DNA of 64,000 bases, taken from positions 30,584 through 94,583 of IMG/VR virus record IMGVR_UViG_3300045921_000950; one strand, given 5' to 3'. This stretch comes from a virus. Positions 5,301-45,014 of this stretch are shown one piece after another. The notes under the pieces were generated by a model that saw only the letters and a program-made list of their open reading frames with translations, searched no databases and had not been told where the DNA came from. Both the position numbers and the translations under genes were made by a program. The first letter of the stretch is position 1. The number at the start of each line of letters is the position of its first letter.

Positions 5301-6307
5301 GTGGTGAAGTTCCACTCGGCGGGGTCGTCGATCCCGCCCCACGGCTCGCCATCGTCCAGGGACTCGATTGCGCCGTCATCGACCAGGACGTGATAGGCGG
5401 TCTCGTGGTCGAGTGGCGCCGATAGCTCAAGCGTGACGGTCGACCCATCGAAGGTCGCGTCGGTCTCGACGTCCCACGCCTCGACCAAGCCCACGCCGGT
5501 CTCGTGGAGCTCGACGAAGCCCGCGCCCGCGGCGACGGACTGGTCGAACGTGAGCACCAGCTCCGCGTCGACCGAGACACCCGTGGCGTTGTCGGCCGGC
5601 GAGATCCCGGTGAGCACCGGGGGCTCGGGGTCTCCGCCGCCGCCCCCGGGCCCCCCGTCGCCTTCGACGAGCTCGCCGACGATGAACATCGGCCCGAGCC
5701 AGTTCGATCCGTCCTGCGTGAACCCGGGCGTCGTGGTGTCGCCGTACGCAGCTACGGCAACGTGGGGGTTGTCCTCCGGATCTGCCGGGTCAGGGACGCG
5801 CCCAACCTCGACAAGCGGGGAATCCCCTGTGAGGTCGAGACCGGGTGGCCCGAAGGCTCCGGCGAACGCTGTGGCGCGGTTCTCGGCGGCGCCGAACGTC
5901 GCCATCGTCGTGGTGAGCACACGGCGCAGGACGTCGGACTGCCCGTCTCGGTACGCGGCCGCGCCGTTGGGGAGGCTATCGTCGTAGCCGGACCACGCCT
6001 TGGCCACCCAGGCGACGCTTTCGAGTCCCGCGCCATACGCGATCGAAATCTGACCCGTGGCGTCGGACGTCGCCACGCCGCGGTAGCGCATCGCGTACTC
6101 CGCAAAGGAGCCGCCGTTCACCTCCAGTTCCCACTCGATGCCCAGCCCGGTCGGGGTGACCGTCGGCTCCGTCTCGCCGCCGAAGACGAGCAGGTCGAGC
6201 TCGATGAGCTCGCCAGCCACGACGGAGATCGACGCGGTCTGGACGGGGCTGGGCGTGTCCCAGCTCGCCGCCCTTCCGGCGGTGAGAAAGCGTACTGAAA
6301 GCGGCAT
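2366..6307 (-). CDS. Giant tail fibre/spike protein with SGNH-hydrolase-like domain
   Basis: 1313 residues, the largest protein here. Residues about 25-215 and 345-555 are two copies of one domain (shared GELxELDxxxFG, SGYDDS/TGYDDS, NGAAAY and LTTT motifs) flanking an Ig-like bacterial domain at about 230-335 (GISPADNATGVSVD). Residues about 575-830 look like an SGNH/GDSL esterase: IDGHSLTD carries a Ser588 nucleophile candidate and NNVHLTD a His809 candidate. A long Ala/Leu-rich repeat region follows, then a C-terminal domain typical of phage fibres (DYGFNWSSWL, TTVWLSGG). Likely role: receptor binding and removal of O-acyl groups from host surface polysaccharide. The nucleophile block is GHS rather than GDS, so activity is not certain. 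Confidence 0.75.
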   Translation of the reverse strand: MPLSVRFLTAGRAASWDTPSPVQTASISVVAGELIELDLLVFGGETEPTVTPTGLGIEWELEVNGGSFAEYAMRYRGVATSDATGQISIAYGAGLESVAWVAKAWSGYDDSLPNGAAAYRDGQSDVLRRVLTTTMATFGAAENRATAFAGAFGPPGLDLTGDSPLVEVGRVPDPADPEDNPHVAVAAYGDTTTPGFTQDGSNWLGPMFIVGELVEGDGGPGGGGGDPEPPVLTGISPADNATGVSVDAELVLTFDQSVAAGAGFVELHETGVGLVEAWDVETDATFDGSTVTLELSAPLDHETAYHVLVDDGAIESLDDGEPWGGIDDPAEWNFTTAAEAPPARSLEIRSLGGYEYSTDDYPEPKTGWLTVYEGELLELDIFTFGSDDVTPSGLGVTWVQVASGGSGGEFAQRWRGVVPASSESDPTITRGKIAFAYDGVTRLAFQARAITGYDDSSANGAAAYVQTSIVRGALTTTLSALGDAAHRVSATAAAFGPETLDLAPASPLTETGRSRVRLGNRFPVVHGWGVTTSPTFDQTGSSWQGPLLIASELAVGEGGPVDPSGSLPEPDDLGPSRTIVAFQIDGHSLTDERIPGDVRDIAIGEGLEVDYGRRYVIGASLEYRTAGGPPIAPAPDYVTWPGYRHGHNRAGENLDLVEHFRNVQAVAGRETARPYDALAFCEGHDLLQAIASHDTVPLARHIYELVREGSPDCVGYFYTTWLPYTVAGLSTWIAYARAKDLAHAAVCSRVNASLALEGRSDRLQILPVSGALAELVEQATTGTLAGITGATVDDTLALIFSDHGTNNVHLTDLGKYFAALVIYGTLYRRDPRGAIYPSTVTGEQAESLQQVAWETLLATFGDAPHLGPQFTATDAQQELVDFVDLYADVYDASPGHGQGDPERAMDRSAMASLLGGTSTAMYFSGDLEEDAEVWYPPPASSWVAVDELEAVEFGTASLVVSPLSLSAPLWGTPAVAVASTDVAGREHGAAALQLAALSASGLLLGSGAVGASVQAAAAPLLGPASAGVSTTAQVALELGLALIDSGALTVDALLALGLGTDVLRVATGQSAAVHGGPAVVVAAPAALEPHALRSPTLPLGATSLSALHHGPASAPLLATTAAARPFGPSTLVLTPAELVALSLGEAELIRLGFEFAALVGLQLGTDALSLRAATLVARELGAAVIAAAAGAFTPPPPTRFVSIEPELRTFSASSTMHQKTIVKDPDATLDYGFNWSSWLQADEEIAESSWTADGDELEIGSGAFAPQTDGSRTTVWLSGGVAGQKYRVTNRVTTDNTPPRTDERSFFVSVMDR

Positions 6308-6363
6308 GGGCTACCGGGCGGAAGCGGGGAGTGGTCGCGCGCGGAGGAACGGGCGAAGCGGGC

Positions 6364-7221
6364 TCACGCGCTGACAGCGCCGAGGCGGAACACACCGAGG
6401 GAGCTGTTCCAGCGGACCTCCTGGTCCGCCGTGGTCGTCAGCCCGCCACCGGGGAGCCCCTGCGCCTGTCGCTTGATCGCCACGAGTCGGCTCGTCCCAG
6501 CGCTGCCGGTGTCCAGGTAGAGCACCATCGCGACTCCGCCCGTGACCCCCGGGTCTCCCGGGAACGTGACGTCGTCGCCGTCGACCACGCCATCCACGAA
6601 GGTGAGGTTGTCGATTTCCTGCGGCGTGCCCGTGCGCTGCCCGGAGGGGACGTCGTCGAGGAAGTCGTGCCCCGCGGCGTACGTGTACGCGGCGGTGACG
6701 AAGAGCACCATCAGCGGCAAGGACGAGATGTCCGAGTTGGCCGGGCGCGAGAGCAGCGCTTCGGCGAACGCCGGATAGAGGTGGTTTTGCCCGCTCGTGA
6801 TGGCGATCGGGATCGCCGGGATCGTGACCGCCTGGTCCTCGGCGTCACCCGTGGGGGTTTCCGGGTCGGACTCGAGGAACTCGAGCGGGAGGTTCGGCGC
6901 GGAGTCGAAGTGCGCCACGAGCCGGCTCGTCCCAGCGCTGCCGGTGTCGATGTACAGGATCGCCTGCGTTGCCGTGTCGCCCGCGAGCCCCGCGCCCGAA
7001 TAGTCGGGCACCGTGAAGCCGAACGCTCCGCCCGTGTAGTCCTTGCTCGTGACCTCGACGGCGGTGCCGAGCACGCCCGTGACGTCGGACAGGAACTCGT
7101 GCGCGTCAGAGTAGCTGTAGGCGCTGGTCAGGAACGCGAACCGAACGGTGCCGCTGAGGGCGCTGTTTGCGGCGCGCGTGAGGGTCGCTTCGAGAAACTT
7201 CGGATACCACTTGTTCGACAT
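6364..7221 (-). CDS. Virion protein with internal duplication
   Basis: 285 residues made of two similar halves (about 1-140 and 145-285). Both contain TSAYSYSDAHEFLSDV/TAAYTYAAGHDFLDDV and LYIDTGSAGTSRLVA/LYLDTGSAGTSRLVA. This family occurs among tail and fibre genes of other phages as a structural protein of unknown role. It lies upstream of the giant fibre gene with a 56-base gap, so it may be a fibre-attached or decorating protein. Confidence 0.75.
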   Translation of the reverse strand: MSNKWYPKFLEATLTRAANSALSGTVRFAFLTSAYSYSDAHEFLSDVTGVLGTAVEVTSKDYTGGAFGFTVPDYSGAGLAGDTATQAILYIDTGSAGTSRLVAHFDSAPNLPLEFLESDPETPTGDAEDQAVTIPAIPIAITSGQNHLYPAFAEALLSRPANSDISSLPLMVLFVTAAYTYAAGHDFLDDVPSGQRTGTPQEIDNLTFVDGVVDGDDVTFPGDPGVTGGVAMVLYLDTGSAGTSRLVAIKRQAQGLPGGGLTTTADQEVRWNSSLGVFRLGAVSA

Positions 7222-38035: not shown

Positions 38036-38808
38036 CAGGTGCGCTTGCGCGAACCGGCCGAGGGCTTCTTCTTCGGACCGGGAGTCCGCGCGGACTTCAC
38101 AGGCGCCTTCTTCGCTGCAGCGGCCCGCTTCTTTTTCGGCGTTTCTTCGGGCGGCTCTCCATCACCGCCAGCACCGCTGCGTGCCCGTTGCGCCGCCTCC
38201 GCCGCCTTCTTCCGGAGCGAGGCTTCGATGCGACGCTGGGTTGGGACGAGGTGCGAACTCACGTCCGTCCGGATGATCCTCTCCACCTCCTCCGCAGATC
38301 CCCCTGCAGTGAAGAGTTCGAAGGCCTGGCGCGCAGTGGTCTTCGGGTGATCACGAAGGAGCCGTTGCGAGAGCTCCTCAAGCACCCCGAAGACGAACGT
38401 CTGGACGAAGCTCCGGTCGATGAGCTTGCCCGAGAGCTCCTCGTTCTTGAGGCGCTGCCCGATGACCTGCTCGTAGACCTTGTAGGCGTCGAGGTGGGCA
38501 GCGAAGCGCTCGAACGTGCCAAAGCGCTCGAAGAGCTCCCGGAACGTCAGGTCCGCGTAGATCTCGAAGTCGTCATCTTCGGACTCGACACCCGGGCCCC
38601 GCTGAGGGTCGACCGAACGGGTGAAGGCGTCGATCGCCGTGGCAGTGACGCCGTGGCGCTCCAAGTACTCCCGGACGACCGGGTGGCCCGCGTCGATGCG
38701 CCGACCCACCACGGCGGGCTGCAGCGTCGTCCTGGCGGCGTCGGAGACGGCCTGGCGGGTGATGTCTGCGAGCCGCGCCAGCTCCGCGAATGTCGTCAGA
38801 CGACGCAC
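38035..38808 (-). CDS. Terminase small subunit (Nu1-like, DNA recognition)
   Basis: 257 residues from a GTG start, or 266 from TTG 38835. Residues 1-45 hold a winged-HTH-like segment (TTFAELARLADITRQAVSDAA). The middle is helical and ends in a basic Lys/Ala/Pro tail (PKKKRAAAAKKAP), giving a longer protein than lambda Nu1. Position before gpA identifies it as the packaging-site recognition subunit. I prefer GTG because a 31-bp dyad covers the TTG and would then lie upstream of the gene. Confidence 0.78.
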   Translation of the reverse strand: MRRLTTFAELARLADITRQAVSDAARTTLQPAVVGRRIDAGHPVVREYLERHGVTATAIDAFTRSVDPQRGPGVESEDDDFEIYADLTFRELFERFGTFERFAAHLDAYKVYEQVIGQRLKNEELSGKLIDRSFVQTFVFGVLEELSQRLLRDHPKTTARQAFELFTAGGSAEEVERIIRTDVSSHLVPTQRRIEASLRKKAAEAAQRARSGAGGDGEPPEETPKKKRAAAAKKAPVKSARTPGPKKKPSAGSRKRT

Positions 38809-42329: not shown

Positions 42330-42791
42330 CTACCGTTTCGGTAGCTGCGGTGGTGGGGGAGACGCAGGAGTTTTGGGCTCCAGTTGCCGTAGACCCTTTG
42401 CCCCACTCAGCAGTGCTCCACGAAGAGACTGTCGCATCAGGAACTCAGTGCGATCCTGGGGCGTGAGACCTTCCAGATGCCTGGTCTGCAGTCGAGAACT
42501 CGCCTTGCTGGACCGCTTCGCCGCCCCGGTGATTCTGGAGTCGCGTAGGCGAACGATGTCGATCGTGTTCCTTGGATCCGAGAAGCGCACCCCGCTCCCA
42601 GGGAGGGGGAAGTACTCCCGGTTGCGTTTGCGCATCGCTCGCCGGAAGAGTTCGCGTCCCCGGGCGTTCATCTGCACACCGCTGAGTTGCTCGATCTCGA
42701 CCCAGGACACAGTGGTCCCGTCTCCTGTCTGATCGATAAAGCTCAGGAGCGCCTCGGTGTCTGCCTTACGTTCTTGGTTCGGTTCGAACAT
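42330..42791 (-). CDS. Unknown protein behind the pentamer-array leader
   Basis: 153 residues; ATG with GAGG 7 bases upstream. TEALLSFIDQTGDGTTVSWVEIEQLSGVQMNARGRELFRRAMRKRNRE looks like a winged-helix-type domain of a family common in phages. The C-terminal third is basic then Pro-rich. Its 430-base leader holds the GGCNN arrays and tRNA-like element, so its translation or transcription may be controlled by them. Confidence 0.7.
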   Translation of the reverse strand: MFEPNQERKADTEALLSFIDQTGDGTTVSWVEIEQLSGVQMNARGRELFRRAMRKRNREYFPLPGSGVRFSDPRNTIDIVRLRDSRITGAAKRSSKASSRLQTRHLEGLTPQDRTEFLMRQSLRGALLSGAKGLRQLEPKTPASPPPPQLPKR

Positions 42792-42822: not shown

Positions 42823-42879
42823 CCTTGCCTTGTGTTGCCAAGCCCCGCCGTGACAAGCCGGGCAATGCCGTGCCGCGCT
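42823..42879 (-). repeat. GGCNN pentamer array 1
   Basis: On the minus strand about 11 contiguous 5-base units of the form GGCNN, ending in the shared tail GGCAA CACAA GGCAA GG. It lies directly before the ribosome site of the gene starting at 42791. Confidence 0.8.
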
Positions 42880-42884
42880 TGGGT

Positions 42885-42915
42885 GCCCCTCCGGGTTTTC
42901 ACACCTCGAAGGGGC
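42885..42915 (-). promoter_or_regulatory. Spacer hairpin 2 of the pentamer region
   Basis: GCCCC/GGGGC stem extended by further pairs, loop TGTGAAAA. It separates arrays 1 and 2 and closely resembles spacer hairpin 1. Confidence 0.65.
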
Positions 42916-42921
42916 GAGCTT

Positions 42922-42978
42922 CCTTGCCTTGTCTTGCCGTGCTCTGCCAAGCCACGCCGATACCTGCCTAGTCACGCC
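42922..42978 (-). repeat. GGCNN pentamer array 2
   Basis: About 11 units, some degenerate (GACTA, GTATC, AGCAC), ending in GGCAA GACAA GGCAA GG. It lies just 3' of the tRNA-like element on the transcript. Confidence 0.75.
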
Positions 42979-42987
42979 GAGTCGGAG

Positions 42988-43036
42988 TCGATGGGGCGGG
43001 AGTCGAACCCGCCTACACCGGTCCATCGAAAGAACC
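42988..43036 (-). other. tRNA-Arg(UCG)-like 3' half
   Basis: On the minus strand: anticodon arm GGTTC-TTTCGAT-GGACC (anticodon TCG, U33 and A37 present), 7-base variable region, T-arm GCGGG-TTCGACT-CCCGC with all invariant T-loop bases, then CCCATCG plus discriminator A. No 5' acceptor strand or D-arm precedes it; array 3 takes that place, so no complete tRNA is made. Possible phage attachment core (tRNA 3' identity segment) or a structured RNA element. TCGATGG and CCATCGA could also pair (7 bp) to make an acceptor/T-arm minihelix. Confidence 0.65.
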
Positions 43037-43101
43037 TTGCCTTGTGTTGCCGCGCCGAGCCGCGCCGTGCCGGGCCGCGCCTCGCCCAGCCTAGCTCTGC
43101 C
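43035..43101 (-). repeat. GGCNN pentamer array 3
   Basis: The most regular array: about 13 units (GGCGC, GGCCC, GGCAC, GGCTC and similar) ending in GGCAA CACAA GGCAA GG, which runs into the tRNA-like anticodon arm. Confidence 0.85.
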
Positions 43102-43110
43102 TCATTCAGT

Positions 43111-43140
43111 GCCCCACCGAGCTTTCACACTCGTCGGGGC
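43111..43140 (-). promoter_or_regulatory. Spacer hairpin 1 of the pentamer region
   Basis: GCCCCGACGAG pairs with CTCGGTGGGGC (one mismatch, one wobble), loop TGTGAAAG. It separates arrays 3 and 4. Loop and stem base are shared with spacer hairpin 2. Confidence 0.7.
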
Positions 43141-43143
43141 GTT

Positions 43144-43205
43144 CCTTGCCTTGTGTTGCCGCGCCATGCCGCGCCGCGCCGCGTCCTGCCTAGCCCTGAC
43201 CTGAC
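43144..43205 (-). repeat. GGCNN pentamer array 4
   Basis: About 12 units, ending in GGCAA CACAA GGCAA GG. First array on the transcript, starting about 20 bases after the stop of the upstream gene. Confidence 0.8.
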
Positions 43206-43224
43206 ATGTCGGGCCTATGAAATC

Positions 43225-43803
43225 CTAGCTCTCCAGCCATTCCAGTTTTGCAACAGTGAACCGGCCGTAGAAGCCGCAACTCTCGGGGCGAAACCTTCCG
43301 ATCCCGACGAGCTTCCCAGCGTATTCCAAGACTTCTTGGAACACCTTCACATCGATGAGCGGGTCGAGGATGTAGAAGTCCACGGTGCCGCCCCATGCGT
43401 CGATGCGGGGGAAGAGCTTCGTCACCCGCTTCCCGCTTCCACGAACCCCGTCGGACGGGACGAACAGTTCGTCTGCGGGCACGTCTTCAGCTCGGACATC
43501 GAGCACAAGGGGATCTATCACCATGACGCCCGCCTCGAAGCTCTTGGTGTAGGTCTTCTGCCCCTTTCCAGGAACTCGCAGCCCCAGCCGCTTCGCGGCT
43601 TGCTTGACGGCGTTCGCGAACACCATCGGCGGGATGAAGACCAGGCCGTCTTTGGTGACATGCATGCGATGTCGCCACGTTCTGCGTTCGTACGCGTCGT
43701 GGAGTTCACGCTCCTTGGGGGGAACCTCCTCCTTCGAGTAGTGCCTACTTTGCGAGTATGCCCCGTCACTGACGAGTGATGCGCGCGCGATGATCTGCTT
43801 CAT
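43225..43803 (-). CDS. Conserved unknown phage protein with RAMP-like features
   Basis: 192 residues; ATG after AAAGGAAG. Conserved-looking blocks: ERRTWRHRMHVTKDGLVFIPPMVFANAVKQAAK, RVPGKGQKTYTKSFEAGVMVIDPL, and a Gly-rich end GKLVGIGRFRPESCGFYGRFTV. I know this as an uncharacterised phage family. The IPP, N and GxGRFRP...GxYGRF pattern recalls the glycine-rich loops of Cas5/Cas7-type RAMP folds, but that link is my inference. Confidence 0.75.
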   Translation of the reverse strand: MKQIIARASLVSDGAYSQSRHYSKEEVPPKERELHDAYERRTWRHRMHVTKDGLVFIPPMVFANAVKQAAKRLGLRVPGKGQKTYTKSFEAGVMVIDPLVLDVRAEDVPADELFVPSDGVRGSGKRVTKLFPRIDAWGGTVDFYILDPLIDVKVFQEVLEYAGKLVGIGRFRPESCGFYGRFTVAKLEWLES

Positions 43804-43860
43804 GGGGACTTCCTTTGCTCTTGCCTCGTTGTTACCTTGGTCACTCGAGAACGAACCCAC

Positions 43861-43889
43861 GGCCCCCGAGCAATGGTGCTTCGGGGGCC
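43861..43889. terminator. Perfect 9-bp hairpin in the gap before the RAMP-like gene
   Basis: GGCCCCCGA (43861-43869) pairs with TCGGGGGCC (43881-43889), loop 11. Some T residues follow on the plus strand, few on the minus strand. It may act as an attenuator within the leftward transcript. The rest of the 43804-43966 gap shows only a possible 20-codon frame. Confidence 0.5.
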
Positions 43890-43966
43890 ACTTTCGTTTC
43901 AGACCGCTGTTGGCTCCTCGGGTTCCGTGAGGCCCACGTCGGCGGGGATCGGATCGCTCACCCGCT

Positions 43967-44290
43967 TCACGCCTTGCCCCCAGGCGCGTTGACGCCGCCG
44001 CCCTTGCCCATGTTGGCGAGACTCAACTCGGCGAGCTTCCGCCCCAACTCGTCCGCAGTGGACCCGCTCTGCTTCACGACCTGGGAGAGCCCCACGAGCC
44101 CCTCGATGGCCTTCTGCCGCGCCTCGGGGAGCTCGAGCGCGAACCGCTTGGCGACGTACAGGGTGAGCTCGGCACCAAACTCGCCCATCTCGTCCACCAG
44201 GGGCCGGACCTGCTCGTAGGGGAAGCCGTAGTGGACGGCGAGGCGGCTCGCGATGGCCCAGGCTCGGATGCGGGAGAGGAGCTTCTTCAT
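43967..44290 (-). CDS. Small unknown protein
   Basis: 107 residues, amphipathic helical (AIASRLAVHYGFPYEQVRPLVDEMGEFGAELTLYVAKRFALELPEARQKAIEGL), Gly/Lys-rich tail. ATGA overlap with the preceding gene. No family recognised. Confidence 0.7.
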   Translation of the reverse strand: MKKLLSRIRAWAIASRLAVHYGFPYEQVRPLVDEMGEFGAELTLYVAKRFALELPEARQKAIEGLVGLSQVVKQSGSTADELGRKLAELSLANMGKGGGVNAPGGKA

Positions 44291-44505
44291 CCGGACCTCC
44301 GCTCGGGCTTGAATGTCAGCGGCCCGGTGGGCAACGACGGCAGCGTGCCATTCCGGATGCAGCGCTCGGTGAAGTCGCGGATCTGCATCGACTGTTCGAG
44401 GTCCACCGCGGCTCGTTGAACCTTCAGCTCGGCTTCCCGGAGTTCGGCGCGCGCCTTCTCTAGGGTGAGCTGCTTGAACTCGCGTTCGACGGACGAGTCG
44501 TTCAC
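44287..44505 (-). CDS. Small coiled-coil protein
   Basis: 72 residues from GTG overlapping the preceding stop (GTGA). Residues 5-50 form a strongly charged helix (LEKARAELREAELKVQRAAVDLEQ); a Pro-rich basic tail follows. Unknown function. Confidence 0.65.
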   Translation of the reverse strand: MNDSSVEREFKQLTLEKARAELREAELKVQRAAVDLEQSMQIRDFTERCIRNGTLPSLPTGPLTFKPERRSG

Positions 44506-45014
44506 CTCGGCATCCTCCTCACCCGGTCGATGTACTCCTCTTCGGACTCGCCCCGCTCACGCAGCGGAAGCAGTTGCGTCGCCACCTTGAGCAAGAGTTG
44601 CTCACCCGTGAACTCAATGGTCGGTCTCGGGATGAGGCCGGCGCGGACAAGGGCTTCCCGTGTGACGCCGGCGCGTTCGGCCCAGGCCCGAAGGGCACGG
44701 TCCTGTAGTTCGGTGCAGGCGCGACTCACCTCGTACCCGAAGTCCGACGCTGAGCCCGCGGGCACCCCAAGGCGGGTGACAAGCGAACCCGGTTCGGTGG
44801 CCTCGCCGAGAAGCTCTGGTGGCTTCTGCGCTTGCTCCCACATGCGCCTCGCCTCCACCGTGAGTCGCTCGATGTCCTCCGTGGTAAGTTCGAATTTTTC
44901 GCCAGGGCGCCAAACCGTGAGTAGGTATGAGGTGCCCAGGAGTACCGCAACGCCGATCTCTCCACGGTCCAGAGTGAGGTCGATGGTTGCTTCGATTTTG
45001 TGTGTGGTGCTCAT
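44502..45014 (-). CDS. Unknown protein of the early region
   Basis: 170 residues; ATG overlaps the preceding stop (ATGA), so a longer frame was rejected. N-terminal beta strands (IEATIDLTLDRGEIGVAVLLGTSYLLTVWRPG) and a helical C-terminus ending RGESEEEYIDRVRRMPR. No family recognised. Confidence 0.7.
   Translation of the reverse strand: MSTTHKIEATIDLTLDRGEIGVAVLLGTSYLLTVWRPGEKFELTTEDIERLTVEARRMWEQAQKPPELLGEATEPGSLVTRLGVPAGSASDFGYEVSRACTELQDRALRAWAERAGVTREALVRAGLIPRPTIEFTGEQLLLKVATQLLPLRERGESEEEYIDRVRRMPR

Follow-up and report, generated by a model that had tools for sequence, protein, structure and literature searches.

The stretch of DNA analysed here (the window; 64,000 nucleotides) comprises bases 30,584–94,583 of a 94,583-bp viral contig. 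On its minus strand, at positions 43215–42823, four pentamer arrays of 14, 13, 12 and 11 units lie between two phage genes, vipr and vap, both of which are intact open frames (Table 1). An earlier note, made from the letters of the window, had described four GGCNN arrays with a common end in the leader of the gene starting at 42791. This description was confirmed; the counts, here 11–14, include the common end GGCAA(C/G)ACAAGGCAAGG, which is present on all four arrays.

Table 1. Coordinates of vipr, vap, the putative vrRNAs (vr1–vr4) and their tails in the window, and of the phrog_15946 accessory gene in three other loci
Feature	Position	Strand	Remarks
vipr	43803-43225	-	192 aa; RAMP protein, phrog_4652 family; upstream of the arrays
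vrRNA 1 array (vr1)	43215-43144	-	14 units including constant end; 5′ units degenerate
vrRNA 1 tail hairpin	43140-43111	-	GCCCC/GGGGC stem, TGTGAAA loop; fold z=-3.85
vrRNA 2 array (vr2)	43101-43035	-	13 units including constant end
vrRNA 2 tail, tRNA top-half-like minihelix	43029-42988	-	Fold z=-2.33
vrRNA 3 array (vr3)	42983-42922	-	12 units including constant end
vrRNA 3 tail hairpin	42915-42885	-	Stem base and loop as in the vrRNA 1 tail; fold z=-2.89
vrRNA 4 array (vr4)	42879-42823	-	11 units including constant end
vap	42791-42330	-	153 aa; Vap1-like, predicted winged-helix DNA-binding accessory protein; downstream of the arrays
phrog_15946 accessory gene, L279	4922-5377		
phrog_15946 accessory gene, L280	4139-4720		
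phrog_15946 accessory gene, L283	4190-4612		

The triplet GGC was exact in 34 of the 50 units, and at least two of its three bases were matched in 46. Exact GGC was found in 11 of the 13 units of vr2, and several units of vr1, vr3 and vr4 departed from GGC; given these units, some arrays at the locus may have decayed. The arrays are periodic, as had been claimed, but to call the pentamers strict was a little overstated. Runs of at least five exact units occurred twice in the whole contig, both at the locus, against 0.025 expected from Markov simulations, and the density of GGC was 94 per kb at the locus compared with 30 per kb in the contig. No array of at least six GGY units was detected elsewhere in the contig. 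The pentamer arrays are not a product of chance, nor do pentamers occur at random across this genome at similar density, an outcome that the earlier note had regarded as fatal to its proposal. The statement that no coding frame explains the arrays also held: the pair NN=TA, which creates TAG in one frame per strand, made up 4.1% of the units in 674 arrays from this and related loci and was not avoided, indicating that relatives do not keep a reading frame through the arrays. At the locus, Tandem Repeats Finder detected nothing but the 5-nt units, with no CRISPR array of direct repeats and spacers. The leader as a whole folded no better than shuffled sequences, as expected if the guides are single-stranded. 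No hammerhead ribozymes, which intersperse the vrRNAs in one VIPR array architecture, were found between the vrRNAs, and an Rfam scan of the window gave 0 matches.

Proteins flanking the arrays

The Viral Interference Programmable Repeat (VIPR) system, as described in the main text of a 2026 preprint (PMC13142463), consists of a RAMP protein of approximately 20 kD, vrRNAs of 9–16 GGY/NN repeats with an invariant 3′ tail, and a vap accessory gene. According to the same text, VIPR recognizes DNA with gaps, by a one-nucleotide skip, and the GGY/NN arrays of SUSP1 Vipr serve as DNA-targeting guides, by which rival DNA is repressed. To avoid circularity, we rebuilt the family profiles without the window, its duplicates, SUSP1 and L015, the locus that holds the nearest relative of the window Vipr (52% identity). 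The rebuilt Vipr family HMM detected the window Vipr at E=1.1e-29 and SUSP1 Vipr at 6e-41, and the HMM of the SUSP1-vap family detected the downstream protein of the window at E=2.8e-7 and SUSP1 Vap at 3.2e-18. Independently of these profiles, phrog_4652 covered both the window Vipr (2.7e-10) and SUSP1 Vipr (1.4e-96), and a PHROG link between the window locus and SUSP1 was also found for Vap. The Vipr-family profile matched PDB entry 36pp (‘SUSP1 Vipr protein’) at 4.5e-51. In a single-sequence phmmer comparison, the similarity of the window Vipr to the solved SUSP1 Vipr was weak; family profiles are required to see the relation.

The AlphaFold2 model of the window Vipr (pLDDT 82) gave type VII Cas7 and Csm3 as top Foldseek matches (E 4e-5). 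The model of Vap (pLDDT 88) showed an N-terminal winged-helix-like domain followed by long helices; OmpR-type profiles matched weakly (E=0.0009), and the fold search returned winged-helix-like matches, with no single significant one. By its profile matches and predicted model, the downstream protein is a distant Vap1 relative with a predicted winged helix.

Tails of the arrays

Each of vr1–vr3 was followed by a hairpin or a minihelix, the minihelix being one of three tail kinds at the locus. The two GCCCC/GGGGC hairpins with TGTGAAA loops reported earlier, and the tRNA-like 3′ half between arrays 3 and 2, were all present and folded better than shuffles (Table 1). The minihelix after vr2 comprises an acceptor stem (TCGATGG/CCATCGA), a linker (ACCGGTGTAG) and a T-arm (GCGGG-TTCGACT-CCCGC). 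The linker stands in place of the D and anticodon arms, and ARAGORN detected no full tRNA cloverleaf in the window. The sequence after vr4 had no measurable structure (fold z=+0.67). The TGTGAAA loop was also found after one array of L015; as a general tail loop it occurred in 5 of 678 tails, with 1.8 expected, indicating that it is restricted to the lineage of the window.

Minihelices of the vr2 type recur beside arrays. In loci chosen for arrays alone, 16 T-arms lay no more than 120 bp from an array, and all of them carried an acceptor stem, joined via a linker of 9–13 nt; the density of T-arms per kb near arrays was 48 times that elsewhere, and the antisense count was 0. A dedicated scan identified 96 minihelices in 39 loci, 86 of them unique (37 loci), with 58 distinct acceptor stems and 43 T-stems. 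When the minihelices were aligned with MAFFT, RNAalifold recovered the T-stem only, the acceptor stem being lost because the linkers vary; support for the acceptor stem was therefore taken from a permutation test: of 101 unique T-arms, 91 showed acceptor pairing, and the permuted sets reached 26 on average and 39 at most. Most minihelices in other loci were not called as tRNAs by ARAGORN. LittleE, Trine, L172, L298, L301, L328 and other loci carry an acceptor stem, GG linker and T-arm between arrays, as in the window; their tails are mostly minihelices, whereas the window has one among its three tail kinds. In these other loci the minihelices are annotated merely as hypothetical or non-coding. 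In the Vipr tree, loci with minihelices clustered on the side with vap1-like genes (12 changes compared with 25.6 when shuffled).

The dinucleotide GG was present in 95 of the 96 linkers, compared with 67 expected by shuffling, usually three bases past the acceptor strand, and may take the place of the GG by which the D-loop of tRNA docks on the T-loop. Among 84 unique linker/loop combinations, the two bases after this GG correlated with T-loop positions 59–60 (1.20 bits; permuted maximum, 0.42), TC occurring with CT, CA with GT or GC, and TT with TT. At least two such linker-loop classes were found within one phage in 16 loci. This coupling may reflect a tertiary contact or families of tails.

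Related loci, targets and host

BLASTN of the locus against named phages gave no match because the NN positions vary; a GGCNN-rich query recovered relatives that this search did not. The constant end, searched alone, was found in many unrelated viral contigs behind 7–10 perfect GGCNN units; in genomes, the constant-tail pattern gave mostly chance matches, with arrays beside a few. In 674 arrays (median, 11.5 units), GGC was fixed and NN variable. Among the retrieved viral and genome loci, a Vipr homologue was found in 129 of 167 diverse-array loci compared with 0 of 164 loci without arrays, and arrays lay on the same strand as vipr in 502 cases and on the opposite strand in 13; the other 38 array loci had no Vipr in the stretch examined, and some of these end at contig ends.

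Named phages with arrays include Mycobacterium phages Donkeykong (L279) and LittleE (L281), Gordonia phages Trine (L282) and ODay (L283), and Cyanophage Cy-LDV1 (L280). Homologues of both window flanking genes adjoin the arrays in the named array phages except Donkeykong, ODay and Cy-LDV1, in which the homologue of the upstream gene is accompanied by a different accessory gene. This second accessory family (phrog_15946; Table 1) takes the place of the vap1-like gene in a different Vipr clade: it was found in 31 loci and the vap1-like gene in 40, with both in none. A VIPR locus is also present in DSL-LC04 (L286), where Vipr is annotated as an HTH regulator; in this set of six, hypothetical-protein annotations cover some of the arrays. 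Pseudomonas phage vB_Pae_LESphi2 (OQ594955; L287, 2465–3944), the P. aeruginosa LES prophage 2, carries a VIPR locus with vipr, a vap1-like gene and at least two arrays, which is annotated as hypothetical.

Several further loci differed in array form. Very long unbroken arrays, far above a single guide, were observed in L163 (approximately 120 units, 6301–6900) and L185 (30–48 units). In Chloroflexota genomes (Anaerolineae, Longilinea; L103, 6421–6805, and L116, 1743–2255), vipr lies near several arrays that recurring CTCCCTGACGGAGA... units separate from one another. The viral contigs L308 and L327 carry 26–34 tRNA/tmRNA genes; a GGCNN-type array lies within the tRNA-cluster stretch of L308, in which no Vipr was found in the stretch examined. 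A shorter contig of the window phage itself (IMGVR_UViG_3300044998_000951), which otherwise matches at 100% identity, lacks 1,865 bp (42924–44788) containing vipr and vr1–vr3. The break coincides with the end of vr3 and shows a 2-nt overlap, vr4 and vap are retained, and a short piece near 38108–38158 is also missing. This contig may represent a variant in the population or a misassembly.

Under the one-skip rule, the decoded guides were CCnATnAGnAGnTAnAGnGCnGCnGCnATnGC (vr1), AGnTAnTGnGAnGCnCCnACnGCnTCnGC (vr2), TCnGTnTAnAGnTCnGTnTTnAGnAC (vr3) and GCnACnATnCCnTTnACnGGnTT (vr4). None of the four had a self-target in the 94.6-kb contig. A scan of IMG/VR with vr1 and vr2 under the same rule gave no credible target: vr2 had 0 matches, and vr1 had two chance-level matches that did not extend, the flanking NN not matching. 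When all arrays were compared with all retrieved loci (2.9 Mb) at skips of 0–4, no excess over shuffled guides was detected. The closest named terminase to that of the phage was 49% identical, and a terminase-based host search covering 274 genomes from a single class gave nothing at E<=1e-100.

Interpretation of the locus

Based on the array class, the gene neighbours and their orientation, the family membership of the proteins and the folds of the tails, all observed at this locus, we identify it as a phage VIPR locus with the four arrays as vrRNAs, at a probability of roughly 0.93. The arrays do have the geometry of a leader, as first described, but on this identification they are genes for guide RNAs, placed between vipr and vap; the guide information resides in the variable NN pairs, and the upstream gene encodes their reader. 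Two roles suggested earlier, a ladder of GGC motifs displayed by RNA and a binding platform for an oligomeric protein, were right in outline, the ladder being the vrRNAs and the protein Vipr, a Cas7-like RAMP. By analogy, the function is probably RNA-guided, gapped recognition and repression of rival DNA. Following the main text of the preprint (PMC13142463), the strand would be transcribed, and each array with its 3′ tail would yield a guide RNA of approximately 100 nt. Vipr subunits would coat the 5-nt repeats, holding GGC and presenting NN, and the NN pairs would jointly recognize double-stranded DNA with one base skipped between successive pairs (NNxNNxNN). Once bound, Vipr would, with the help of Vap, silence genes of competing phages or satellites.

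SUSP1 VIPR (type II, vap1; PDB 36pp), as presented in that main text (PMC13142463), shares with the window a phage-borne pair of vipr and vap with arrays beside the genes, GGY/NN arrays of approximately 9–16 units, and an invariant end with a structured 3′ tail. It differs in that its arrays lie both upstream and downstream, its units are mostly GGT and its tail is a pseudoknot, whereas in the window all four arrays lie between vipr and vap, the units are GGC and the tails form either UGUGAAA hairpins or a tRNA-like minihelix. With the Cas7/Csm3 RAMP of class 1 CRISPR, the window Vipr shares a predicted RRM/RAMP fold and, as a mechanistic analogy, a guide-RNA filament with periodic gaps. Unlike class 1 CRISPR, the window locus has a 5-nt repeat with two informative bases, a single-gene effector and no CRISPR array that was detected.

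Sites for TRAP, the trp RNA-binding attenuation protein, consist of 11 triplets with 2-nt spacers in RNA. The 5-nt period and approximately 11 triplets with 2-nt spacers directly upstream of a start codon might therefore suggest attenuation, with a ring protein of approximately 11 subunits binding the mRNA leader to control the downstream gene. We consider this very unlikely, since the triplet is GGC rather than (G/U)AG, arrays in L015 lie upstream of vipr and after vap as well as between them, and the linked protein is a different one, a Cas7-fold RAMP whose SUSP1 relative is reported in the main text of the preprint to use arrays as DNA-targeting guides (PMC13142463). A classic attP core is a tRNA 3′ half, and 5-base spacing is half a helical turn, so that the locus could be read as a DNA element: a replication origin, a partition site, or an attP with the arrays as arm-type sites. 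The strand of the arrays, however, follows vipr, and the 30-nt tRNA-like core had no exact copy in a collection of 84,980 species. Moreover, the 86 unique minihelices adjoin arrays, often several different ones per phage, and keep their acceptor stems paired without D and anticodon arms. The tRNA-like piece, being one of these, was rejected as an att site, and the origin, recombination or attachment region offered in the earlier note was not supported; such an element appears highly improbable.

That a RAMP-fold protein adjoins repeats would also fit a relic of type I/III CRISPR with degenerate repeats, but the units are of 5 nt rather than long direct repeats with spacers, the cassette consists of two genes only, and the best family match is Vipr rather than Cas7, which makes this reading extremely remote. 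Decay of the window copy, such that it no longer yields working guides, is suggested by the 16 of 50 units off GGC and by the shorter contig without vipr and vr1–vr3. It is nevertheless rather unlikely given the intact vipr and vap frames, the preservation of vr2 and the tails that still fold, and the shorter contig may itself be variant or misassembled.

Within the VIPR identification, the role of the minihelices is less secure. They may be the 3′ tails of vrRNAs and possibly sites of processing by RNase P and RNase Z. Such tRNA top-half-like tails (acceptor stem, D-loop-like GG linker and T-arm) might cap the guide, and might recruit both enzymes to separate polycistronic guide transcripts. 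Bacterial RNase P requires mainly stacked acceptor and T-stems (PMC11221534), which makes punctuation by tRNA-processing enzymes plausible. We tentatively propose, at somewhat less than even odds, that a large class of VIPR guides is capped and punctuated by mimics of the tRNA top half, comprising an acceptor stem, a 12-nt linker with a T-loop-docking GG, and a T-arm, and that host RNase P and RNase Z, or binding of the tRNA elbow, mature the polycistronic transcripts. If true, this would be a natural counterpart of engineered tRNA-gRNA arrays. The term ‘tRNA’ is absent from the main text of the sole VIPR paper found (PMC13142463), and the minihelix tail architecture appears to be undescribed.

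The locus was found from raw sequence, without a protein as the starting point, and led to a recurrent class of tRNA-like tails. In prophage LESphi2 and in well-studied mycobacteriophages, VIPR accounts for GGCNN tracts that lack annotation and for genes labelled ‘hypothetical’. Should the tails bring in tRNA-processing enzymes of the host, some VIPR systems would mature their guides without a dedicated nuclease. VIPR has been proposed as the ancestor of CRISPR with a non-contiguous DNA code, and each new locus helps to test that proposal.
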